Assembly (NCBI GenBank): GCA_030146905.1
Contig: JASLAV010000644.1
Location: 1-14,396, forward strand
Origin: Lentzea sp.
GTDB lineage: Bacteria; Actinomycetota; Actinomycetes; Mycobacteriales; Pseudonocardiaceae
Length of the DNA stretch: 14,396 bases
Direction of reading: 5' to 3'
A program made the translations under genes and the position numbers. This document shows, piece by piece, positions 1-14,396 of this stretch (its first letter is position 1; every line of letters begins with the position of its first letter). The notes beneath the pieces were generated by a model that saw nothing but the letters and a program-made list of their open reading frames with translations, was not told the origin of the DNA and ran no database searches.

Positions 1-1686
1 CGGCCTGCCCCAGTTCCCCGCCGACGCGACCTTCTCCAGCACCGCCCGAGCCCGGTCGTCGCGGAGGAAACCGAGGCGGAACCGCAACGGGTCCTGGTTC
101 ATCTTCGCCGCCAGCCCGTCGACGATCAGCTCACGCGCGCAGGCGACGTCGGGGGAGTAGACGTTGCGCATGCTGCCGGTGTTGAAGCCTTTGTCCGTCT
201 CAGCCAACAAGTGGGTGGCGGTGCCGAAGTTGTACGGCATCGATTGTGAAAGGTGGAAGAACGTCTGGGAGAAGCCGATGTCGCCTACCGGCAGCCGTGC
301 GGCCATGGCGGTGAACAGCTCGCCGAGCCCGTGGCTCAGGTCGGTGCAGACGCTGGTGTGCCGTTGGGCGTAGCTCAGCACGGTGTTGCCCACATAGGAC
401 ACTCGTACGCGTGAGGTGGCCATGGGGTGTGCGCGTCCCTGGCGGGTATCGTCGGCTCGGTGCCACATGAGCTTGACGGGCTTGCCGATTTTGCGGGAAA
501 CCTCCGCGGCCTCCAGCGCTGCGTCGAAGAAGAGCTTGCGTCCGAACGAACCACCGCCTTCGGTCACGTGCACGGTGACCGCGTTCGCCGGCAGTCCGAG
601 CTTGGCGGCGATCAGTTTCTGGGCGACGATCGGGGCTTTCACCGAGGACCAGATCTCCGCTCGGCCTGGCCGCACGTCGGCGATGGCGCAGTTGGGTTCC
701 AGGGCGCTGTTGCCGCGGAAGTAGAAGGTGAACCTTCCTTCCACGGTCGGCGTCAGCGGCGGCGGGCCGAGCAGGAGTTCCGCCGCACGGAGCTCCGCCA
801 GCACGGTGTCGTCGGATTTTCCCTCTGCTGTACCGGGTCTCCACGACACCAGCAGCGCGCGCACGCCGTCGATGCACTGGCCGAAAGTGTCCGCGCGCAC
901 CGCGACCCCGGTCGAGATGACCACGACGTCGGTAACGCCTGGCAGTGCGCGGACCTCGGCAAGGTTCAGCACCGAGCCCACCTTGCCGTTGATGGTCGGA
1001 GGGCGGCACACCATCGTCGGCAGAGCGCCGGGCACGGTGAGATCCATCGTGAACTTCTTGCGCCCGGTCACGGCGGCCACCCCGTCGACCCGGTTGTGCG
1101 GCTTGCCTATGACGGTGAAGCTCTGCCGCGGTTTGAGCGTCACGACCACTTGCTGCGATTGGGTGCTCGCGGCTTTCCCGGCCAGAGCACCGATACCGAC
1201 CCTGCGGCCGGCACCGATCACCACCCCGTCCTCGATCACGAGATCTTTCGTGCCGAGTTCCGTCGCTGCGGCCTCCAGCAAGCGCAGCCGGGCGGTTGCG
1301 GCGGCGACCCGGATAGGGGTGTAGGTCGCGATGGTCGTGTTGGACGCGCCGGTGAGCTGGTTGAACAGCAACTCGGGGCGTGCGTCGGCCAGTGAGACGC
1401 GGACCCGGTCCGGCGACACGTCCATCTCCTCGGCGATCAGCATCGCCGTGGACGTGGTGATGCCCTGCCCGACCTCGGCCCGCGGCAGCGAGAACAGCAC
1501 GATGCCGTCGGCATCGACCTCCACCGTGATGAGTCCGGAGGTCGGCAGCGCCGCCGCGGTCATCACGTCGTTGAGGTCGACCAGCCGCGTGAGGTCCGGC
1601 GAGGGGATCTCCTCCTCACCGAACCTGGCTGCGGTCACAAGCGTCGGTGCCGCCAGCACGTACCCGAGGAACCGGCGTCGTTTCAC
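1..1686 (-). CDS. oxiB: Molybdopterin-binding large subunit of aldehyde oxidase/dehydrogenase (OxiB/IorB-like), 3' end cut by window edge
   Basis: The reading frame stays open for 562 codons to the window edge; the family is usually over 700 aa, so the C-terminus with the catalytic Glu lies outside. Seen: a GTG start overlapping the lcp stop (GTGA), an N-terminal twin-arginine motif (KRRRFLGY, residues 2-9) with a short hydrophobic stretch, the ALEPNC motif at 328-333, a GGGSFGRK motif at 377-384 typical of isoquinoline 1-oxidoreductase beta subunits, and a conserved SMRNVYSP segment near 505-512. The family binds a molybdopterin cytosine dinucleotide cofactor and works with a small 2Fe-2S subunit (OxiA/IorA), expected just beyond the left edge. 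Family knowledge: in the rubber degrader Streptomyces sp. K30, oxiA/oxiB sit beside lcp and are thought to oxidise the aldehyde ends of cleaved polyisoprene. The same role is inferred here. The Tat motif suggests periplasmic/extracellular placement, with the Fe-S subunit possibly co-exported. The family is secure; the substrate is inferred. Confidence 0.88.
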   Translation of the reverse strand, partial: MKRRRFLGYVLAAPTLVTAARFGEEEIPSPDLTRLVDLNDVMTAAALPTSGLITVEVDADGIVLFSLPRAEVGQGITTSTAMLIAEEMDVSPDRVRVSLADARPELLFNQLTGASNTTIATYTPIRVAAATARLRLLEAAATELGTKDLVIEDGVVIGAGRRVGIGALAGKAASTQSQQVVVTLKPRQSFTVIGKPHNRVDGVAAVTGRKKFTMDLTVPGALPTMVCRPPTINGKVGSVLNLAEVRALPGVTDVVVISTGVAVRADTFGQCIDGVRALLVSWRPGTAEGKSDDTVLAELRAAELLLGPPPLTPTVEGRFTFYFRGNSALEPNCAIADVRPGRAEIWSSVKAPIVAQKLIAAKLGLPANAVTVHVTEGGGSFGRKLFFDAALEAAEVSRKIGKPVKLMWHRADDTRQGRAHPMATSRVRVSYVGNTVLSYAQRHTSVCTDLSHGLGELFTAMAARLPVGDIGFSQTFFHLSQSMPYNFGTATHLLAETDKGFNTGSMRNVYSPDVACARELIVDGLAAKMNQDPLRFRLGFLRDDRARAVLEKVASAGNWGRP

Positions 1687-2897
1687 GACGGCCTGTTCAT
1701 GTCGGGGATTTCGATCGAGATGCGCCGTCCCTCGGAGAAGAACAGCAGCACGAACCGGCGGATGACTTCTTCGAGCGTCCACGCGGCGTCCGGGATGAGC
1801 GGCAACGGGATCAGGTGCTCGCGGAACGCCACCAGCTTCGGCCAGGCGGAGCCGATCAGCGTCTCCCAGAAGGGTTCGCGGCTCAGACCGATCCAGTTGC
1901 CGATCCGGTCGCCGACGGTGTAGCGGGAGAACGCGTTGATCATCGGCCGGGTCAGGCCGCCGTCGACCTCCGCGACGATGCCGAGCAGGTCGTCCGCCAG
2001 CGCCATGCCCTCGCGGGTGGGGCCGAGAGCGGGGTCGAGCAGCTGCTTCGACTGCGCGTTGGCCGCCTCCCACGTCGCTGGGATGTACTCGTCGCGGATG
2101 CCGAGCATGTGCGCCGTGACCTGCCAGACGTGCAGGTACGCGGCCGAGTCCGACGGACTGACCCGCACGCCCCATTCCAGCATCTTGCGCATGACGAACG
2201 TGGGCAGGCTGTGCCAGGTGACGAGCATGTCCGCGAGGCTGATCGGGATCTTCTGGCCGCCGTTCGTGCCGGACCACCCCGGCGACTTCGGCAGCAGGTG
2301 CCGCACCGCCGCGTGCACCATGCGGGTCTTCACCGCGGTCACGATCATTTCGCCCTGCGGCTGGTACGCGTCCAGGTCACCTACGTCGTAGCCGAGTTTC
2401 GCCGTCTTGGCGACGCGGTCCTTCATGTCCGCGCCGCCCTTGGAGTAGTAGACGGCGCGGGCTTCCTTGGGAATCGCTGTGCTCATCAGCCCGCTGCCCA
2501 GTCCATACAGGACACCGACGTAGATTCCCTTGGTCCTGTTGAACTGTGCCGCGGCGTCGAGCTTGCGCTGGTCCGCCCAGGTCGGTAAGCGGCGTGCCCG
2601 CTCCATGAAGTCGCGCAGATCGGCCGGCAGCCCATCGGGTAACGGCTGGTCGTTGCGGGTCCAGGTGCGCAGCAGCTGGTTGACGCGTGGGACGTCACCG
2701 CGGTCGATCACCGCGGCGAGCAACTGGTCGGCCTCGTCATCCCACACCCAGTTCGGGTCGGTGCCGGTGCCGGAACCCGCGAGGGACCCGCTGGGCGACC
2801 ACGTCCACAGCGCGCTCGCGTTGGCGGGGGAGGCGAGGCACAGCGCGCCCAGCGTCCCACCCGCGACCAACATCCTGCGCCTGCTGATTTCGTTCAT
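1683..2897 (-). CDS. lcp: Latex-clearing protein (rubber oxygenase, heme b, DUF2236), first paralogue
   Basis: 404 aa, the usual Lcp length. Lcp is a secreted heme b dioxygenase that cuts cis-1,4-polyisoprene into oligo-isoprenoids with aldehyde and keto ends. Seen: a Tat signal (SRRRML at 5-10, hydrophobic core, AxA-type cleavage near residue 27 or 29) and the conserved YYSKGGADM segment. The residues known from Lcp of Streptomyces K30 all appear with a constant offset of -3: E145 (E148, base), R161 (R164), K164 (K167, distal ligand), T165 (T168), H195 (H198, proximal heme ligand) and T227 (T230). The ATG start has a GAGGAG ribosome site 8-10 nt upstream. It lies 29 bp downstream of a second lcp and overlaps the oxidase gene by 4 bp, so co-transcription is likely. 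Other DUF2236 proteins lack this combination of Tat signal, length and residues. The K30 numbering is recalled from the literature, not aligned by software. Confidence 0.93.
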   Translation of the reverse strand: MNEISRRRMLVAGGTLGALCLASPANASALWTWSPSGSLAGSGTGTDPNWVWDDEADQLLAAVIDRGDVPRVNQLLRTWTRNDQPLPDGLPADLRDFMERARRLPTWADQRKLDAAAQFNRTKGIYVGVLYGLGSGLMSTAIPKEARAVYYSKGGADMKDRVAKTAKLGYDVGDLDAYQPQGEMIVTAVKTRMVHAAVRHLLPKSPGWSGTNGGQKIPISLADMLVTWHSLPTFVMRKMLEWGVRVSPSDSAAYLHVWQVTAHMLGIRDEYIPATWEAANAQSKQLLDPALGPTREGMALADDLLGIVAEVDGGLTRPMINAFSRYTVGDRIGNWIGLSREPFWETLIGSAWPKLVAFREHLIPLPLIPDAAWTLEEVIRRFVLLFFSEGRRISIEIPDMNRPS

Positions 2898-2926
2898 GAC
2901 AGGAGCTCCTCGTCGAGTCCGCGTGC

Positions 2927-4153
2927 TCAGGAAGGCCGGTTGGTGTCGGGGATCTCGATGTGCACCTCACGCCCCTTGGTGAGGTAGAACATGATGTAGC
3001 GGCGTGCGGCCTCGTCGAGCGTCCAGGCGAGCTGCGGCACCAGCGGCAACGGGATCAGCTTCTCCCGGAAGCTCACGAGCTTCGGCCAGACCGAGGCGAT
3101 GGTCGGGTCCCAGAACGGTTCTCGTTCGATGCCGTCCCAGTCCGCGATCTGGTCGCCGACGAGGTAGCGCGCCAGCGCGTTGACCATGGGGCGGCTGGTG
3201 CTCGCGGGACTGGTCTGCTCCGCGAGCTGGCCGAGCAGGATGTCCGTCAGCTCCATCCCCTCGCGCGTCGGGCCGAGCACGGGGTCGAGCAGCTGGCGCG
3301 ACTGGGCGTTGGCCGCGTCCCACGTCGCCGGGATGTATTCGTCGCGGATGCCGAGCAGGTGCGCGGTCACCTGCCACACGTGCAGGTACGCCGTGGACTC
3401 TGCGGAGGTGATCGGGACCCGCCACTCCAGCATCTTGCGCATCGCGTAGGTCGGCAGGGTGTGCCAGGTGACGAGCATGTCCGCCAGGCTGATCGGGATC
3501 TTCTGGCCGCCGCTCGTGTCGGACCACCCCGGTGACTTCGGCAGCAGGTGCCGCACGGCCGCGTGCACCATCCTGGTCTTGACCGCCTCGACGATGATCG
3601 CGCCGCTGGGCTGGTAGGCGTCCAGGTCTCCGACCGCGAAACCGAGGCGGCTGGTCTTCGCGACGCGGTCCTCCATGTCGGCGCCGCCCTTGGAGTAGTA
3701 CACGGCGCGGGCCTCGCGCGGGATCGCCGTGCTCAACATGCCGCCGCCGACACCGTTGAGCAGGTTGAGGTAGAAGCCCCTGCTGACGTTGAACCTGGCC
3801 GCGACGTCGAGCTTGCGCTGATCGGCCCACGCCGGCAGCTGCCGGGCCCGCTGCATGAAGTCGCGCACGTCCGCCGGCAGTCCGTCCGGCAACGGCTGGT
3901 CGTTGCGGGTCCAGGCGCGCATCACCTGGTTGACGCGCGGGACGTCACCGCGGTCGATCACCGACGCGAGCAGCTGGTCGGCCTCGTCGTCCCAGACCCA
4001 GTTCGGGTCGGCGCCCGCGCCGGAGCCCGCCACCGACCCGGCGGGCGCCCAGGTCCACTCCCGTCCCAGCGCGGGGGAGGCCATGCCGAGCGCCCCCAGC
4101 GCTCCGAGCGTGCCGCCCGCGATCAACATGTTGCGCCTGCTGAGTCCGTCCAT
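2927..4153 (-). CDS. lcp: Latex-clearing protein (rubber oxygenase, heme b, DUF2236), second paralogue, promoter-proximal
   Basis: 408 aa from the chosen ATG, which has GAGGAGG about 10 nt upstream. An in-frame ATG at 4195 would add 14 residues (MYQRDIEV...), but it has no good ribosome site, abuts the proposed operator, and would place a charged stretch before the Tat signal. Seen: a Tat signal (SRRNML at 5-10, cleavage near residue 30) and the same heme and catalytic set, at offset -1 from Lcp K30: E147, R163, K166, T167, H197, T229. It closely resembles its neighbour along the whole length. The clearest differences are around residues 122-140 (NVSRGFYLNLLNGVGGG against NRTKGIYVGVLYGLGSG), the 307-320 loop and the C-terminal helix. 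It is the first gene of the lcp-lcp-oxidase unit and is divergent from a TetR gene. The role is the same polyisoprene cleavage; a difference in substrate length or product profile between the two copies is possible but not visible here. Confidence 0.92.
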   Translation of the reverse strand: MDGLSRRNMLIAGGTLGALGALGMASPALGREWTWAPAGSVAGSGAGADPNWVWDDEADQLLASVIDRGDVPRVNQVMRAWTRNDQPLPDGLPADVRDFMQRARQLPAWADQRKLDVAARFNVSRGFYLNLLNGVGGGMLSTAIPREARAVYYSKGGADMEDRVAKTSRLGFAVGDLDAYQPSGAIIVEAVKTRMVHAAVRHLLPKSPGWSDTSGGQKIPISLADMLVTWHTLPTYAMRKMLEWRVPITSAESTAYLHVWQVTAHLLGIRDEYIPATWDAANAQSRQLLDPVLGPTREGMELTDILLGQLAEQTSPASTSRPMVNALARYLVGDQIADWDGIEREPFWDPTIASVWPKLVSFREKLIPLPLVPQLAWTLDEAARRYIMFYLTKGREVHIEIPDTNRPS

Positions 4154-4186
4154 CAGGTGGGAGTCCTCCTCGACTTCGATGTCGCG

Positions 4187-4222
4187 TTGATACAATGAAA
4201 CAAGGTGAGTATCTCTGTATCA
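4187..4222. promoter_or_regulatory. Probable operator/promoter between the lcp unit and the tetR gene
   Basis: TGATACA (4188-4194) and TGTATCA (4216-4222) form a perfect 7-bp inverted repeat with a 21-nt spacer. A further GTATC at 4209-4213 is a direct repeat of the one at 4217-4221, so three copies of GATAC/GTATC fall within 33 bp. On the plus strand TTGATA (4187-4192), a 17-nt spacer and TATCTC (4210-4215) fit a weak sigma-70-type promoter for the regulator gene, which would place the repeats across its -35 and -10. TetR regulators commonly bind such repeats in the divergent gap beside their own gene. The exact protected sequence, and any minus-strand promoter for lcp, cannot be fixed by eye. 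Confidence 0.5.
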
Positions 4223-4273
4223 TGGGAGCACAGGCGTGCTCATGATCGCCAGAGTTCGTCAGGGGGAACGAGG

Positions 4274-4957
4274 TTGGAACCTGTACCGTCGACCGCCATG
4301 AGTTCCCCGGACGCCCGTTCGGTGCTGGAGCTGGCGTTCAGCGAAGCGGTCGAGGGCGCGGACGCCGACGACGAGGTCACCACGCGCCTGCTCGACGCCG
4401 CGCACGAGCAGTTCCGCCGCAGGGGCATCAAGCGGTCCACGATGGCGGACGTCGCGAAGCTCGCCGGCCTGTCGCGGATCACTGTCTACCGCCGGTTCGC
4501 GACCAAGGACGCGTTGGTGGAACACGTGGTGCGGCGCGAGTTCCGGCGCTACTTCGACCAGTTCATCATCGACGTCCGGGGCGCCGAGACCGTGGCGGAC
4601 CGGGTCGTCGTGGGATTCGTGAGCTCGTTGCGCGCCATCCGCGACAACCCGCTCATCGGCGGCCTGATGGACGTCGAACCGGACGCCGTCGTGCCGTCCA
4701 TGATCAGTGATGAGGGCCGGACGCTGGCCGCCGTGCGGGAGTTCGTCGCGAGCAGGCTGCGCTGGGAGCAGCACGCGGGCACCGTGTCGCACGCCGTCGA
4801 CGTCGACGTGGTGGCCGAGATGATGGTCCGCATCTCCGCCTCCTTCCTGGTGATCCCCAGCCACGTCATAGACCTCGACGACGACGAGCAGCTGCGCTCG
4901 GTGGCCCGGCGGTTCCTGGTGCCGATGCTCGAGCCACCGCGCGAGCCTCACTCGTAG
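4274..4957 (+). CDS. TetR-family regulator divergent from the lcp genes (LcpR-like)
   Basis: 227 aa from a TTG start chosen because AGGGGG (4261-4266) lies 7 nt upstream; the ATG at 4298 is an alternative with a poor ribosome site. The frame extends up to a GTG at 4205, but that codon lies inside the likely promoter, so it is unlikely to be translated. Seen: a TetR N-terminal helix-turn-helix (RLLDAAHEQFRRRGIKRSTM, then DVAKLAGLSRITVYRRFATKDAL, about residues 36-80) and a helical C-terminal ligand domain of the usual length. Family knowledge: in Gordonia polyisoprenivorans VH2 a TetR regulator, LcpR, controls lcp. The divergent position and the repeat-containing gap support the same job here, probably repression of lcp and of itself until a cleavage product binds. 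Its last 10 bp overlap the end of the convergent fadB. The fold is certain; the target is inferred. Confidence 0.87.
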   Translation: MEPVPSTAMSSPDARSVLELAFSEAVEGADADDEVTTRLLDAAHEQFRRRGIKRSTMADVAKLAGLSRITVYRRFATKDALVEHVVRREFRRYFDQFIIDVRGAETVADRVVVGFVSSLRAIRDNPLIGGLMDVEPDAVVPSMISDEGRTLAAVREFVASRLRWEQHAGTVSHAVDVDVVAEMMVRISASFLVIPSHVIDLDDDEQLRSVARRFLVPMLEPPREPHS

Positions 4958-7053
4958 CGCTCGCCCCTCGCGGCCTTCTCCCGCAGCGAGGCCGGTGGCG
5001 CGAACCGATCTCCGTACGCGGCAGCCAGTTCCTCCGCGCGCGCGACGAATCCGGGGAGCCCGCCGGGGTAGCCGTTGACGTACTGCAGCACCCCGCCGGT
5101 CCACGCCGGGAAGCCGATGCCCAGGATCGAGCCGACGTTGGCGTCGGGCACGGACCGCAGCACGCCCTCGTCCAGGCAACGGATCGAGTCGAGTGCCTCG
5201 GCGAACAGCATCCGCTCCTTCATGTCCTCGAACGGGATCTCGCGGCCCGGCACGGTGAAGTGCTCGCGCAGCCCCGGCCACAGCCCGGTCCGCTTGCCGT
5301 CGGCGTACTCGTAGAAGCCCGCCCCGCTCGACCGGCCACCGCGGCCGAACTCGTCGATCATGCGGTCGACGACGACCTCGGCACCGTGCGCGTGCCACTG
5401 TCCGCCCTCGGCCAGCACCGCAGCCTTGGTCTCCTCGCGGATCTTGCGCGGCAGCGTCAACGTCAGCTCGTCCAGCAACCGCAGCGGCGGCGCGGGATAG
5501 CCCGCCTGGGAGCCTGCCTGCTCGATCGACGCGGGGTGCAGGCCCTCACCGAGCATCGCCACCGCCTCGTCGATGAACCGGCCGATCACCCGGCTGGTGA
5601 AGAACCCCCGGCTGTCGTTGACCACGATCGGCGTCTTGCCGATCTGCCGGGCGATGTCGACGGCCTTGGCAATGGTCTGCTCGCTGGTCTTCTCACCGAC
5701 GACGATCTCCAGCAATGGCATCTTGTCCACCGGTGAGAAGAAGTGCAGGCCGATGAAGTCCTCCGGCCGCCCGACCCCCTCGGCCAGCTTCGTGATCGGC
5801 AACGTCGACGTGTTGGACCCCAGCACCGCGTCCGCCGTGACGACGCCCTCGATCTCGGCGAACACCTTCTGCTTGACATCCGGGTCCTCGAAGACCGCCT
5901 CGATCACCAGGTCGCAGCCGGCGAGATCGGTGGCGTCGGCGGTCGGCGTGATCCGCGCGAACGCGTCGGGTGTCTTCGCGGAGTACTGCCTGCCCTTCTC
6001 CGCCGCGTCGAGCGAGACGTCCTTGAGCACGACCTCCAGCCCGGCTTTGGCGCAGGAGTAGGCGATCCCGGCCCCCATCATGCCCGCGCCCAGCACGGCG
6101 ACCTTGCGCGCGGCGTGCCTCGGGTGGCCGAGCGGGCGGTTGCCCCCGGAGTTGACGTGCTGCATGTCGTAGAAGAACGCCTGCATCATGTTCTTCGCGA
6201 CCTGGCCGGTCATCAGCTCGACCAGGTAGGTCGTCTCGACCTTCTCCCCGGCCTCGAAGCTCAACTGCGCGCTTTCGACGGCGGCGGCCAGGATGTTGCG
6301 CGGTGCAGGCATGTTCGCGCCCTTGAGCTGCTTGCGCAGGTTGGCGGGGAACGCGGGCAGCATCGCCGCGACCTTCGGGTTCGACACCGCGCCACCGGGC
6401 ATCCGGTAGCCCGCCACGTCCCACGGCTGCTTCGCGTCCGGGTTGGCGAGCACCCACTCCCTGGCCTTGGCGAGCATTTCCTCCGGCGTCGCGGCGAGCT
6501 CGTCGACCAGGCCCTTGGCGAGCGCCTTCGCCGGGCGGTGGCGGGTGCCGGTCAGCAGCATGTCCGTCAACGCCGTCCGCAACCCGAGCAGCCGCACGGT
6601 CCTGGTCACACCGCCACAGCCCGGCAGCAGCCCCAGCGTGACCTCCGGCAGGCCGAACCGGCTGTCGGCGGCATCCAGCGCGACGCGGTGGTGGCAGGCG
6701 AGCGCGATCTCGTAGCCACCGCCGAGCGCCGTGCCGTTCAACGCAGCGGCGACCGGCCTGCCGAACGTCTCCAGTCGGCGCAGCTGGGCCTTGAGCACCC
6801 GGCACACCTCGCTGATCTCGGCGGCGTTCTCCGGTCGCGCCCTGCTCATGAACCCGACGTCACCGCCGGCGAAGAAGCTCGCCTTGGCCGAGGTGAGCAC
6901 GACACCGGTGACGGTCTCGCGCTCGGCCTCCAGCCTGGTGACGACGGCCTCCATGGCGTCCACATAGGACTGATTCATCGTGTTGACTGGCTGGTCGGGG
7001 TCGTCCATGGTCATCACGACGACGCCGTCAGAGCCCTGCTCCCAGCGGATCAC
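4948..7053 (-). CDS. fadB: Multifunctional fatty-acid oxidation protein: enoyl-CoA hydratase / 3-hydroxyacyl-CoA dehydrogenase (FadB-like)
   Basis: 701 aa, the normal length of a FadB alpha subunit. It hydrates 2-enoyl-CoA and then oxidises the 3-hydroxyacyl-CoA with NAD in the cytoplasm. Seen: an N-terminal crotonase domain (about 1-190) with an oxyanion segment ([10 protein letters not shown], 60-69), GGGYEIALA containing E115, and [14 protein letters not shown] containing E137, the two catalytic glutamates; a Rossmann motif GAGMMGAG at 322-329; and [17 protein letters not shown] with the dehydrogenase catalytic His at 437. A C-terminal hydroxyacyl dehydrogenase domain follows. The start is GTG with GGGAGG 7 nt upstream. 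It lies 15 bp after the thiolase gene, so the two form the usual fadA-fadB pair making the trifunctional-type complex. Its 3' end overlaps the convergent tetR stop by 10 bp with no terminator between them. Involvement in catabolism of oxidised isoprenoids is inferred from position only. Confidence 0.95.
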
Positions 7054-7068
7054 GGTGTTACCTCCCGG

Positions 7069-8277
7069 TCAGAGACGTTCGACGACGGTCGCGATGCCGA
7101 TGCCGCCACCGGCGCACAGGCTGACCACGGCCCGACGCGCGTCCCGGCGTTCCAGCTCGTCGACGACGGTGCCGACGAGCATCGCCCCGGTGGCCCCGAG
7201 CGGATGGCCCATGGCGATCGCGCCGCCGTTGACGTTGACCTTGTCCCACGGCAGGCCGAGGTCCCTGACGTACTTGAGGACCACCGACGCGAAAGCCTCG
7301 TTGATCTCGAACAGGTCGATGTCGTCCACGGTCAGACCGGCCAGGCCGAGTGCCTTGCGGGTAGCGGGCGCCGGACCGGTGAGCATGATCGTCGGATCGG
7401 CTCCGCTGACCGCGGCGGCCACGATCCGGGCGCGCGGGGTGAGACCGTGCTCCACGCCGGCCTGCTTCGAGCCGACCAGCACCAGCGCTGCGCCGTCCAC
7501 GACACCTGAGGAGTTGCCAGGGGTGTGGACGTGCTCGATGCGCTCGACCCAGTGGTACTTCAGCAGCGCCACCGCGTCGAAGCCGCCCATCTCACCGATG
7601 CCAGCGAACGACGGCTGCAGCTCGCCCAGAGTCTCCTCGGATGTGTGCGGGCGCATGTGTTCGTCCTGGGCCAGCACGGTGACGCCGTTGCGGTCCTTCA
7701 CCGGGATGACGGACTTGGTGAAGTAGCCGCCGGTCCACGCCTGCGCGGCCAGCAACTGCGACCGGACCGCGTAGGCGTCCACGTCGTGGCGGGTGAAGCC
7801 CTCGGTCGTCGCGATGAGGTCGGCGCTTATGCCTTGCGGCACGAAGTACGTGTCGTAGGCCGTCTCCGGGTCGGCGGCCATCGCCCCGCCGTCACTGCCC
7901 ATAGGCACGCGGGACATCGACTCGACACCGCCCGCGAGGACGAGCTGGTCCCAGCCGGACCGGACCTTCTGCGCCGCGGTGTTCACCGCCTCCAGCCCGG
8001 AGGCGCAGAACCGGTTGAGCTGCGCGCCCGCGGTGGTGTCCGGTAACCCGGCCGCGAGCACCGCCGCCTTGGCGAGGTTCATGCCCTGGTCGCCGACCGG
8101 CGTGACGACCCCGAGGAGGACGTCGTCCAGCCGCGCCGGGTCCAGGTTCGGCTGGCGGTGCCGCAGCTCACCTATCAGGCCTGTCACCAGGGACACCGGT
8201 TTGACGTGGTGCAAAGCGCCGCCGCGGCCCTTGCCGCGCGGGGTGCGGATGGCGTCGTAGATGAATGCTTCGGTCAC
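7069..8277 (-). CDS. fadA: Acetyl-CoA C-acyltransferase (thiolase, FadA-like)
   Basis: 402 aa, typical for a thiolase. It cleaves 3-ketoacyl-CoA with CoA, releasing acetyl-CoA (or propionyl-CoA from methyl-branched chains). Seen: the acyl-accepting cysteine at C91 in [15 protein letters not shown], the INEAFAS segment at 325-331, the GHP motif with H358 in [15 protein letters not shown], and the second active-site cysteine C388 in [11 protein letters not shown]. All catalytic residues are intact. The start is GTG, preceded by GAGG a few bases upstream. It is the first gene of the minus-strand fadA-fadB unit and lies downstream of one of the paired operators in the divergent gap. Acetyl-CoA acetyltransferases have similar motifs, but the neighbouring fadB argues for a degradative thiolase. 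Chain-length preference cannot be judged from sequence. Confidence 0.95.
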
Positions 8278-8333
8278 TGGTCCTCACGCTTCCTCTTCGC
8301 CCGCGGCAGGTCCGGCGGGGACAGGTGGTGGGG

Positions 8334-8353
8334 CTGTTGACTGACTGTCAATA
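8334..8353 (-). promoter_or_regulatory. Operator site A, in front of fadA-fadB
   Basis: Read on the minus strand it is TATTGACA-GTC-AGTCAACAG, with a perfect inverted repeat TTGAC-N5-GTCAA at 8337-8351. It matches site B at 17 of 20 positions; the only differences are the three central bases. It contains TTGACA, a consensus -35 hexamer pointing toward fadA, although no convincing -10 is visible 17-18 nt further on. It is centred 67 bp upstream of the fadA start. The likely ligand is the TetR protein encoded at 10333-10953. Confidence 0.65.
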
Positions 8354-8434
8354 ACGTCGAACGTAGCAGCGATCCGTTCGAACGCAACAGGATCTCGTTC
8401 TGAATCGACACTGACGAGCCAGGTGCGACGGCGC

Positions 8435-8454
8435 TATTGACATCGAGTCAACAG
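8435..8454 (+). promoter_or_regulatory. Operator site B, in front of the acyl-CoA synthetase operon
   Basis: Plus strand TATTGACA-TCG-AGTCAACAG, with the perfect inverted repeat TTGAC-N5-GTCAA at 8437-8451. It is the mirror-oriented twin of site A, with centres exactly 100 bp apart (8344 and 8444). TTGACA at 8437-8442 could serve as a -35 for the operon starting at 8516. The conserved flanks outside the palindrome (TA on one side, CAG on the other) keep the same orientation relative to the downstream gene in both sites. A regulator bound here would block or recruit polymerase at both promoters together. Confidence 0.65.
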
Positions 8455-8515
8455 TGGCGGCACGGTGGAACTCGCTCAGCCGAGACCAGTTGGTTCGCGA
8501 TGGAGGGAACCCGCC

Positions 8516-10332
<1,817 letters not shown>

Positions 10333-10336
<4 letters not shown>

Positions 10337-10953
10337 GCGGTCAACGCCAGGCACAGCGACGCAGGATGGAACCGGACGCGCGGCGTGCGGAGATTCTGGG
10401 CGCCGCCCGCCGGCTCTTCGGTGCCAACGGGTACAACTCTGTGTCCACGACGGACATCGCGACCGAGGCGGGCGTGACCCGTGCGTTGATCCACCACTAC
10501 TTCGACACCAAGCGCGCCCTCTACTTGGAGGTAGTGCGGCAGATGATGGTCGTGCCCGCGTCGGTTTCCGAACGGCTGCCGCCCACCGACGCCGCGGAAC
10601 GGGTCTCGATCTGCGTCGACCGGTGGCTGGAGGTCGTCGAGCGCAACCAGGAGATGTGGCTCTTCGCAATCGGCCTGGAGAACCAGGGCAACGACCCGGA
10701 GATCGACCGGATCATGCTGGAGGCCGACGAGATCGCGACCGACCGCGTCCTCGAAGCCGTGATGATGACCGACGTCGCCGAGGGTCAGCAGAAGCTGCGG
10801 GCGATGATCCGCGCCCACAGCGGCATGCTCAAGGCCGCCTCCCGCGAGTGGCTCGTACGCGGCACCCTCAGCCGCGCCGACCTGCACATGATGCTCACCC
10901 GCACCGTTCTGCACCTGGTCGGCACCGTCTTCCCCGCCGTGCGAGACGACTGA
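10333..10953 (+). CDS. TetR-family regulator inside the beta-oxidation operon
   Basis: 206 aa, normal TetR size. Seen: an N-terminal DNA-binding domain (about 18-65) with ILGAARRLFGANGYNSVSTT and then DIATEAGVTRALIHHYFDTK, including the typical helix-3 aromatic HHYF. A helical ligand-binding part follows without a recognisable specific motif. It is translationally coupled to the acyl-CoA synthetase (ATGA overlap) and followed after 13 bp by the acyl-CoA dehydrogenase, so it is co-expressed with the enzymes it probably controls. The natural targets are the paired TTGAC-N5-GTCAA sites between fadA and fadD, with an acyl-CoA as the likely ligand, as for other TetR regulators of fatty-acid degradation. 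It is only distantly similar to the lcp-linked TetR, so the two blocks probably have separate regulators. Confidence 0.9.
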
Positions 10954-10966
10954 GGAGTCCCCCGTC

Positions 10967-12079
10967 ATGCCGAGAAACTTGACCGACGAACGCCGCGATC
11001 TGGTCAACGCGATCGGCGACTTCTGCCGCCGCGAGCGTCGCACCAAGGACGAACCGCACGACCAGGTGGTCTACGAGAAGATGGCCGCGCTGGGCTGGCT
11101 GGGCATCGCCGTGCCCGAACAGTACGGCGGCGCCGGCCTGGGCATGACCGACCTGTGCCTCTTCCTCGAGGAGACCGCCTACGGTCTCGCGCCGATCAGC
11201 GGATTCGGCACCACCATCATCGCCGCAGCCGCCTACGAGAAGTTCGGCACGGAGGAGCAGAAACACGTCGTGCTCGAAGGCGTGGTCAGGGGCCGCGTCG
11301 CGTCCATCTCGATGTCGGAGCCCGGCGCGGGCTCGGACGTGAGCGCGCTGACGTGCCGCGCCGACCGGGTCGATGGCGGCTGGCTGGTCAACGGCCAGAA
11401 GACCTGGTGCTCCAACGCCCACTTCGCCGACCACATCCTGCTCATCGCCCGTTCCTCGCAGGAGAAGTCGCGGCACCAGGGGCTGACGCAGTTCATGGTG
11501 CCCACCAACGCCGACGGCCTGCAGATCAAGGGCATCGACACGATGGGCGGGCGTGAAGTCAACGACCTGTACTTCACCGACTGCTTCGTACCGGACTCGG
11601 CGGTCGTCGGCGCGGTGGGCAACGCGTGGACCCAGTTGATGGCCGGGCTCAACCTGGAACGGATGATCCTCGCCGCGCTGATGCTCGGCGTTGCGAGGCG
11701 CGCCTTCGACGACACGCTGAGCTATGTGCGCCAGCGCGAGCAGTTCGGCCGCCCCATCGGATCGTTCCAGGCGCTCAAACACCGGATCGCCGACATGGCC
11801 ACCGAACTCGAATGCGCCCGGTTGCTGCTTGACGACGTCGCCACCGCGATCACCGCCGAGCCGGACCGCGTCTTCGCCCGCGAGGCGTCCATGGTCAAGC
11901 TCAAGTGCACCGAGCTCGCCAAACACGTCGCCCTCGAAGGCATGCAGATGATGGGCGGCTACGGCTACGCCATCGAGTACGGGATGGAAGCCCTCCTGCG
12001 CTCGGCCGTCGTGTCCACCGTCTACGGGGGAACGAGCGAGATCCAGCGGGACATCATCGGCAAGACGTACGGGTTGTAG
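10967..12079 (+). CDS. Acyl-CoA dehydrogenase
   Basis: 370 aa, slightly short but complete. It is an FAD enzyme that introduces the 2,3-double bond of an acyl-CoA, the first oxidation step of beta-oxidation. Seen: PEQYGGAGLG near 50-59, the flavin/substrate motif SISMSEPGAGSDVS (113-126), QREQFGRPIGSFQALKHRIADM in the C-terminal helical domain, and YGMEALLRSA...VYGGTSEIQR near the end. E341 aligns with the catalytic Glu of medium-chain acyl-CoA dehydrogenase (YxxEKLMRD-type context). The ATG is preceded by GAGGAG in the 13-bp gap after tetR. Chain or branch preference is not evident. With fadD, fadB and fadA it completes the enzymes for one turn of the spiral. Confidence 0.94.
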   Translation: MPRNLTDERRDLVNAIGDFCRRERRTKDEPHDQVVYEKMAALGWLGIAVPEQYGGAGLGMTDLCLFLEETAYGLAPISGFGTTIIAAAAYEKFGTEEQKHVVLEGVVRGRVASISMSEPGAGSDVSALTCRADRVDGGWLVNGQKTWCSNAHFADHILLIARSSQEKSRHQGLTQFMVPTNADGLQIKGIDTMGGREVNDLYFTDCFVPDSAVVGAVGNAWTQLMAGLNLERMILAALMLGVARRAFDDTLSYVRQREQFGRPIGSFQALKHRIADMATELECARLLLDDVATAITAEPDRVFAREASMVKLKCTELAKHVALEGMQMMGGYGYAIEYGMEALLRSAVVSTVYGGTSEIQRDIIGKTYGL

Positions 12080-12087
12080 GGGAGTAG

Positions 12088-13065
<978 letters not shown>

Positions 13066-13760: not shown

Positions 13761-14002
13761 TAAGAAGGCTTCTTCGCGAACGAGACCCGGTGAACGTGTA
13801 TCCGTTCATCGATGCGGAGAACGCCGGCAACGTCAAGCGCGCCTGCGAGTTGCTCAAGGTCTCCCGTGCCGCCTACTGCAACCGCAGCGCCACCGGCCCG
13901 TCCGCCCGAGTGCGTCGACGCCACGCTGACCGAGAAGATCATCGAGGTGCCCGACGGGTCGGACGGCACTTACGGGGCACCGCGGATCCATGCCGAGCTG
14001 AG
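13761..14002 (+). pseudogene. Truncated, frameshifted IS3-family transposase remnant (end of orfA, start of orfB)
   Basis: Seen: an orfA tail ...FFANETR* ending at 13793, overlapped as GTGA by the orfB start at 13790 in the -1 frame, the classic IS3 arrangement. OrfB begins VNVYPFIDAENAGNVKRACE, then LLKVSRAAYCNRSATGPSARV, the N-terminal helix-turn-helix part of IS3 OrfB. The family wording resumes one base out of register near 13912-13917 as DATLTEKIIEV...DGTYGAPRIHAEL and stops at about 14000. Roughly 70 of the usual 280 or so residues remain and the DDE catalytic core is absent, so it cannot transpose. Upstream, only the last few codons of orfA are recognisable. The right boundary abuts the terminator region of a CBM2 gene, so the missing part was deleted. 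Confidence 0.8.
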
Positions 14003-14040
14003 TGGTAGCGGCTCAGCCGCGAGGCCGGTTGAAGCGAGCC

Positions 14041-14084: not shown

Positions 14085-14396
14085 TCAGGACGCGGTGCAG
14101 GTGAGGGTTGGGGTACCCGCGGTTCCGGAGGCGACGAAACCGAACGTGGTGCTGGCGCCCGCGCCCACGGCGCCGTTGTAGGCGGCGTTGCGGGCGGTGA
14201 TCGTAGGCCCGCTCGTGGTCAAGGCCGCGCTCCACGAGGAGTTGATCCGCTCACCGTTGGTGAACGTCCAGCTCACCGTCCAGCCGGAGATCGCCGTCGC
14301 GCCGGCGGTCACGCGCGCTTCGGCCTGGAAGCCATCGGACCACTGCGAGGTCACCTGGAAGGTGGCCGAGCAGCCCGCCGAGGGGTTGCCGGTCGT
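14085..14396 (-). CDS. C-terminal CBM2 cellulose-binding domain of a secreted protein (5' part outside window)
   Basis: The last 103 codons and stop (TGA) of a gene entering from the right. Seen: a family 2 carbohydrate-binding module with first cysteine in SAGCSATF, QWSDGFQAEARV, ISGWTVSWTFTNGERINSSWSA, ITARNAAYNGAVGAGASTTFGF, and the closing cysteine in TPTLTCTAS*. Three conserved tryptophans (in QW, SGW and SW contexts) and the two terminal cysteines for the disulfide are present. The module sits at the very C-terminus, as is usual in actinomycete cellulases, xylanases and AA10 lytic polysaccharide monooxygenases. The catalytic part is not visible, so the enzyme class is unknown. The upstream residues TTGNPSAG look like the end of a linker. 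It is unrelated in function to the rubber genes and probably belongs to the native flank. Confidence 0.9.
   Translation of the reverse strand, partial: TTGNPSAGCSATFQVTSQWSDGFQAEARVTAGATAISGWTVSWTFTNGERINSSWSAALTTSGPTITARNAAYNGAVGAGASTTFGFVASGTAGTPTLTCTAS

Follow-up and report, generated by a model that had tools for sequence, protein, structure and literature searches.

The closest described counterpart of the locus reported here, an lcp rubber-oxygenase operon in a Lentzea sp., is that of Actinoplanes OR16. There lcp1, lcp2, oxiB and oxiA form one transcript, detected by reverse-transcription PCR across the lcp1-lcp2, lcp2-oxiB and oxiB-oxiA junctions, the adjoining TetR protein ACTI_59620 binds before lcp1, and the purified Lcps take up oxygen (PMC7413915; all published work is cited from the portions of the sources available to us). 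Two adjacent lcp genes together with oxiB and oxiA are also reported from Dactylosporangium (PMC11169899), Streptomyces CFMR7 (PMC9108482) and Microtetraspora (PMC8538451). Streptomyces sp. K30 has oxiB and oxiA beside a single lcp, against two in the DNA analysed here (as given in PMC3426405 and PMC9108482). In Gordonia polyisoprenivorans VH2 the TetR regulator LcpR-VH2 is described with palindromic sites before lcp (PMC7413915, PMC8235351), and PMC11169899 detected neither oxiA nor oxiB in that genus. The window, as we call the whole stretch of 14,396 nucleotides analysed (assembly GCA_030146905.1, contig JASLAV010000644.1), carries a tandem lcp pair, an oxiB-type gene and a divergent tetR gene, followed on the right by genes of beta-oxidation. 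Among the 8 of 28 matches listed by a literature search naming the genus, none mentions a rubber catabolic set in Lentzea.

The predicted lcp1-lcp2-oxiB operon

The genes lcp1 (2927..4153; 408 amino acids, with an alternative in-frame TTG at 4195) and lcp2 (1683..2897; 404 amino acids) lie on the minus strand, 29 bp apart, and run in the order lcp1, lcp2, oxiB. Both products passed the Pfam MPAB_Lcp_cat (PF09995) cut-off, and the NCBIfam search assigned no family to either. Each matches LcpK30 (PDB 5o1l) over its full length, Lcp1 with 579 bits and 247/406 identities (61%), Lcp2 with 665 bits and 292/404 identities (72%), making the Lcp fold plain from sequence identity. The two are 72% identical to each other; they are other paralogues than the tandem Lcps of OR16, which are 57% and 54% identical to LcpK30 and 52% to one another (PMC7413915). 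The residues Glu148, Arg164, Lys167, Thr168 and His198 (LcpK30 numbering), discussed for LcpK30 in PMC5522427 and PMC6311187, are conserved in both proteins. Twin-arginine motifs, read by eye as SRRNML and SRRRML close to the two N-termini, mark both as carrying a twin-arginine translocation (Tat) signal. A Lentzea guizhouensis protein is 96% identical to Lcp1.

Downstream, the large subunit of an oxiB-type molybdenum oxidase with a Tat signal (KRRRFLGYVLAA) occupies 1..1686 on the minus strand. Its open reading frame (ORF) begins at a GTG, is visible for 562 amino acids and is cut by the window edge, its 3' part lying beyond. The overlap with lcp2 is four bases, GTGA, at 1683-1686. Pfam MoCoBD_1 and MoCoBD_2, which are molybdopterin-binding domains, scored above cut-off, and the NCBIfam matches were all below cut-off. 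The gene was assigned from its domains, its position and comparison with its relatives. We compared the locus with 27 related loci, 26 of which carry oxiB. The oxidase is 72-78% identical in 25 of these 26 and 51% identical in L024; an RRxFLG motif recurs in 24 of them, and the other two (L019, L024) have RR with a close variant. Because the twin-arginine start with RRxFLG recurs in relatives, aldehyde oxidation probably also takes place outside the cytoplasm. The small-subunit gene oxiA (2Fe-2S) would fall left of base 1, outside the window; it is expected there because it directly follows oxiB in all 26 oxiB-bearing loci. The remaining locus, L026, has neither gene within 8 kb. Of the compared loci, L002-L027 were found by scanning genome contigs with two seven-residue patterns and so represent close relatives only, whereas L001 is a Nonomuraea record from a search of a plasmid collection. 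That record, of Nonomuraea gerenzanensis, is 11.85 Mb long and filed as a plasmid; judging by that size, it is probably the chromosome. At several surveyed loci ORFs were filtered by third-position GC, and genes of other composition may be absent from the lists.

These data bear out most of the first-pass annotation of this DNA. Its two Lcp rubber oxygenases are confirmed by PF09995, the full-length LcpK30 matches and the five catalytic residues; the OxiB-type large subunit with its 4-bp overlap of the second lcp, by the ORF coordinates and the molybdopterin-binding domains; and the divergent tetR gene, by its plus-strand position and a TetR_N match above cut-off. The function it assigned, polyisoprene cleavage with oxidation of the resulting aldehydes, is well supported, and growth of the host on latex is a fair prediction. 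Its claim that joining a tandem lcp pair to the oxidase makes an arrangement fuller than those known does not hold, this layout being published for OR16, Dactylosporangium, CFMR7 and Microtetraspora. With OR16 the window shares gene order, tight tandem lcp genes, OxiB and an adjoining TetR, with oxiA lying outside the window. As originally stated, then, the finding is known biology. The rubber island is sound and well conserved; compared with the first-pass annotation, its on/off switch stands out more clearly and its helper genes are more numerous.

We regard it as likely, at a probability of roughly 0.88, that the locus serves rubber degradation, through Lcp cleavage, OxiAB oxidation, breakdown of the acids by the right-hand genes and control by an LcpR-type TetR. 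Two Tat-exported Lcp haem dioxygenases would cut the polymer extracellularly into oligo-isoprenoids with aldehyde and keto ends, and the OxiAB molybdenum oxidase, whose large subunit has a Tat signal, would convert the aldehydes to acids. Once imported, the acids would be activated by a FadD11-like ligase and shortened by acyl-CoA dehydrogenase, a FadJ-like enzyme and thiolase. The divergent TetR, acting on an operator at 4189-4221, may keep lcp1-lcp2-oxiB-oxiA repressed, with a breakdown product as the inducer. The window holds a near-complete and well-kept rubber catabolic set, and its interest lies in the operator as a marker, in the naming of downstream genes and in the presence of two Lcp kinds.

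A putative four-half-site operator before lcp1

A putative 33-bp operator with four half-sites lies at 4189..4221, 35 bp before the lcp1 ATG. Read towards lcp1 it is GATAC-AGA-GATAC-TCACCTT-GTTTC-ATT-GTATC, that is, GATAC-N3-GATAC-N7-GTTTC-N3-GTATC, and it matches our search pattern (GATACNNNGATACN7GTWTCNNNGTATC) with no mismatch. When the window was scanned at up to 6 mismatches, the pattern occurred only here, with no copy before the beta-oxidation genes. On the VH2 plasmid p174 stretch, the pattern fits best at the 33-bp LcpR-VH2-bound palindrome quoted in PMC7413915, just before lcp2; this site has the half-site spacing of the window's operator but 3 mismatches (next best 7). The site quoted before lcp1 of VH2 differs in sequence from the window operator. 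Since the VH2 lcp2 palindrome has the same operator layout, the first TetR (4274..4957, plus strand) is best read as an LcpR of the VH2 kind, by its position and its operator. Pfam TetR_C_36 matched this protein below cut-off. The listed ORF begins at 4205, which would sit inside the operator; most TetR homologues can be read (by eye) from a conserved (V/M/L)EP or VES, several with a clear ribosome-binding site, and the homologue in L025 is without this start. Translation therefore probably starts at TTG 4274, giving a predicted protein of 227 amino acids. When 4100-4320 was scanned for promoters, a single sigma-70-like site emerged (9 of 12, against a mean of 0.0 in shuffled sequences). It spans the operator and faces tetR on the plus strand; none faces lcp1. 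We also considered a structured operator hairpin and rejected it, as the single-strand fold was no better than that of shuffled sequences; the repeat is therefore read as a protein-binding palindrome.

All 27 related loci carry a site with at most 4 mismatches ahead of an lcp gene. For 29 of the 32 sites in these loci the distance to the start of the matched lcp is 16-57 bp, and for three (L018, L021, L024) it is 139-161 bp. A separate second lcp has its own site in L015, L016, L021 and L022, and the separate second lcp of L024 has none. Operator-like sequences with 4 mismatches also occur more than 400 bp from any lcp in L016 (15329) and in L023 (12821, beside a TetR gene).

At the level of whole genomes, 24 of 26 lcp genomes have sites at up to 3 mismatches, and the sites of the other two (G004, G006) have 4. 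Of the 31 such places in these genomes, 30 precede lcp and the remaining one, in G014, precedes the fadD gene of that island; a reversed control pattern gave a single match. The fadD site, in Actinophytocola algeriensis (L044, 3102-3134), is an lcp operator with 3 mismatches standing before fadD-acd of the rubber island. We extended the survey with Lcp bit-score cuts that we set from gaps in the score lists: at least 510 for operon-type Lcp in Pseudonocardiaceae, at least 660 for K30-type Lcp in Streptomyces and at least 390 for any Lcp. Among 150 Pseudonocardiaceae there were 42 places in 35 genomes, and none for the reversed control. Of these, 29 precede lcp and are spread over 28 of the 31 genomes that have an operon-type Lcp (the misses being G095, G126 and G144), whereas only 7 of 119 genomes lacking such an Lcp have a site anywhere, 5 of the 7 at 3 mismatches. 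The 13 places elsewhere comprise the fadD site of G014, a decayed island in G084, single cases in G060, G091, G069 and G102, and seven sites at 3 mismatches, which we took for chance. Among 199 Streptomyces genomes 7 have a site, which in G246 and G340 does not adjoin lcp; the reversed control matched 4 times, in 3 genomes. The pattern offers a cheap sequence test for rubber-type regulation.

Several of the sites away from lcp have neighbours of their own. In G060, which had no match in the Lcp search, a perfect operator (L042, 6962-6994) lies between a TetR gene whose product is 41% identical to the window's first TetR and a gene for an oxygenase of the MPAB family (PF09995). Because this perfect site adjoins another PF09995 oxygenase, the operator code is probably not confined to rubber genes. 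In G246, a Streptomyces with no match to Lcp, an operator-like site immediately precedes a TetR gene whose product is 42% alike (L046, 7484-8181). In G091 a site with 2 mismatches (L041, 6673-6705) stands 5 bp before a truncated-globin ORF (PF01152), about 83 kb from the lcp operon on the same contig. A second operator-like site with 2 mismatches follows lcp in G069 (L043, 9031-9063), and likewise in G102.

Beta-oxidation genes beside the operon

To the right of tetR, the minus strand encodes a FadJ/FadB-like enoyl-CoA hydratase/3-hydroxyacyl-CoA dehydrogenase (4948..7053; Pfam ECH_1, 3HCDH) and a 3-ketoacyl-CoA thiolase (7069..8277; NCBIfam PRK08242 above cut-off). On the plus strand follow a FadD11-like acyl-CoA ligase (8465..10336; Pfam AMP-binding, with FadD11 the best NCBIfam match, below cut-off), a second TetR regulator (10333..10953; TetR_N), an acyl-CoA dehydrogenase (10967..12079; Pfam Acyl-CoA_dh_1/M/N) and a nitronate monooxygenase/FabK-like flavoprotein (12091..13065; Pfam NMO). 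The second TetR is retained in island loci and is not close to the first, their alignment covering little beyond the helix-turn-helix. The dehydrogenase lies near lcp in many loci, and the flavoprotein is kept beside it, being 84-86% alike in L029, L032 and L049. The order from dehydrogenase to FadJ is kept beside rubber genes in Saccharothrix (L002), Actinosynnema (L008), L032 (G046) and Streptomyces (L005, L007, L009), and in these same six loci the island thiolase is 83-85% alike. The beta-oxidation genes at 4948-13065 are linked to lcp in Streptomyces and in several relatives of Lentzea, but not everywhere. The first-pass annotation had called the TetR-lcp-lcp-oxidase genes a self-contained unit, which fails here, as the block conserved in relatives runs on to about 13065.

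Part of this linkage is already in print. Microtetraspora sp. AC03309 has, like the window, a fatty-acid CoA ligase, an acyl-CoA dehydrogenase, oxiB, lcp1, lcp2 and two TetR genes, and also oxiA, whereas its listed genes are without FadJ or thiolase (PMC8538451); the adjacency of ligase and dehydrogenase to lcp is therefore not new. In its available part PMC7413915 ties no beta-oxidation genes to the OR16 operon. A shared lcp/beta-oxidation regulon is not named in the titles or abstract openings among the open-licence matches listed. The step after OxiAB has been described through lists of candidate genes (PMC8538451), and the linkage seen here names a likely ligase and acyl-CoA dehydrogenase to take over at that point.

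It is also conceivable that only the lcp-oxiB operon is a rubber unit and that the genes to its right are ordinary fatty-acid genes and mere neighbours. We hold this to be unlikely, while granting it appreciable weight. Thiolases of the island kind are core genes, present in 144 of 150 Pseudonocardiaceae (E value 1e-150) and 185 of 199 Streptomyces (1e-180), with only one of the 199 having a thiolase above 80%, which favours the neighbour reading. Against it, G001, G046 and G084 each carry the island thiolase alongside a second copy, which is 65-66% alike. The window has no lcp operator before its beta-oxidation genes, whereas in G014 that operator stands ahead of fadD. The ligase also speaks against mere neighbourhood, being rare and tracking lcp. 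At an E value of 1e-220, 4 of 199 Streptomyces have a FadD orthologue; each of the four belongs to the 9 genomes with a K30-type Lcp and has the ligase gene some 1 to 10 kb away from lcp. Simple counting by hand, with relatedness ignored, gives a chance of 2e-6 for this. Leaving out the centre genome G003, the count is 3 of 198, all among 8 K30-type genomes, with a chance of about 4e-5 on the same hand count. In Pseudonocardiaceae a ligase at least 71% identical occurs in 7 of 150 genomes, all with some Lcp (44 of the 150 have an Lcp of at least 390 bits); it adjoins lcp in G001, G043, G046 and G153, and in G084 it is part of a decayed island. Nonomuraea (L001, L017), Pseudofrankia, Actinophytocola and Herbihabitans likewise have, next to lcp, a dehydrogenase (59-72%) and a ligase that is less closely related (53-57%).

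Other observations weigh against the rubber-degradation scheme or narrow it. No island ligase or dehydrogenase was found within 8 kb in 11 of the 27 loci (L011-L014, L018-L020, L022, L023, L026, L027), and FadJ with thiolase is present in only five (L002, L005, L007-L009); both counts also favour the neighbour explanation. The FadD orthologue lies away from lcp in G050 and G088. Because the window has the pattern only at the lcp operator, its beta-oxidation genes may be governed by the second TetR, or by neither of the two. The operator itself is found at up to 3 mismatches in only 5 of the 9 Streptomyces with K30-type Lcp (of the other four, two were inspected and carry it at 4), and sites outside lcp loci also stand beside other TetR genes, in G060 and G246. 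The function of OxiB rests on similarity, and evidence on the host is confined to the window, placing oxiA, other lcp copies and uptake genes beyond its reach.

The rubber operon of G084 is decayed (L029, 13005-15057), with the operator kept at 2 mismatches and oxiB and tetR shortened. No lcp match was obtained at 1e-10, only scraps being seen by eye, and the beta-oxidation half is whole.

Two kinds of Lcp

A tree of 69 Lcps, built without L028 and L038 (duplicates of L015 and L022), resolved three groups in lcp operons plus an outgroup of five third-type rows (L034-L037 and the first lcp of L023). Lcp1 falls in group III and Lcp2, near LcpK30, in group II. The order group III, group II, oxiB is found in the window and ten loci (L002-L010, L025) from Saccharothrix, Actinosynnema and Streptomyces. 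Ten Nonomuraea/Streptosporangium loci (L001, L011-L014, L017-L020, L027) have group I, group III, oxiB. In L015, L016, L021, L022 and L024 a group III gene adjoins oxiB and the group I lcp is separate; L023 has a third-type lcp placed in front, and in L026 groups I and III are present but oxiB is not.

The 32 sequences of group III, Lcp1 among them, are set apart from the other 37 Lcps at ten positions with clean numbering, where their residues are fixed or almost so; two further diagnostic positions of the twelve (328, 333) were excluded, since they follow an indel and have no clean LcpK30 numbering. Eight of the ten lie at 131-141 and 162-174 (LcpK30), near Glu148 and Arg164/Lys167/Thr168 in sequence: N131, N134, G138, L141, E162, S169, F173 and A174. 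LcpK30 and VH2 Lcp2 show the other state at all eight, except for Ser131 in VH2. When the 120 nearest proteins listed for Lcp1 were compared, 118 had both N131 and N134, as expected of a set chosen by similarity to Lcp1. From the LcpK30 numbering in PMC5522427, we infer a location near the haem gate for the group III residues; that the Lcp1 group has a special function is a guess.

One could instead suppose that Lcp1 is a spent copy, retained through linkage alone, and that Lcp2 does the work. Lcp1 is indeed the more distant from LcpK30 (61% against 72%), and tandem copies can differ, OR16 Lcp1 being about 7 times as active as Lcp2 (PMC7413915). We find this improbable, as the Lcp1 group is present in 10 of 10 tandem loci of the window's type, retains all five catalytic residues and, in other families, is the copy that adjoins oxiB. 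That the oxygenases target another isoprenoid or unsaturated hydrocarbon, such as a plant or fungal terpenoid, with rubber incidental, is less probable still: the PF09995 family name also spans non-rubber oxygenases, the perfect operator of G060 adjoins one other PF09995 protein in a genome with no Lcp match, and Lcp1 is altered near the haem gate, but Lcp2 is 72% identical to LcpK30 and the tested OR16 and Dactylosporangium Lcps all act on rubber (PMC7413915, PMC11169899).

Beyond rubber degradation as such, a broader picture joins a polymer-to-acetyl-CoA island, two Lcp enzyme kinds and the operator of a wider TetR family. We offer it tentatively, with the odds somewhat against it. If it is true, a dedicated ligase, dehydrogenase, FadJ and thiolase would be inherited with the rubber genes, the ligase being under the same LcpR operator in at least one genome. 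Lcp1 would have a rebuilt haem gate and would therefore differ in the substrates it accepts or in the length of its products. The four-half-site operator would be the hallmark of a TetR family that has other PF09995 oxygenases under its control as well.

A tRNA search at the right end of the window gave none. To the right of the conserved block, 13812-14010 has a weak HTH_21 match below cut-off, resembling an insertion-sequence remnant, and 14085-14354 (minus strand) encodes a cellulose-binding domain (CBM_2), which may belong to a secreted enzyme truncated at the end of the window.

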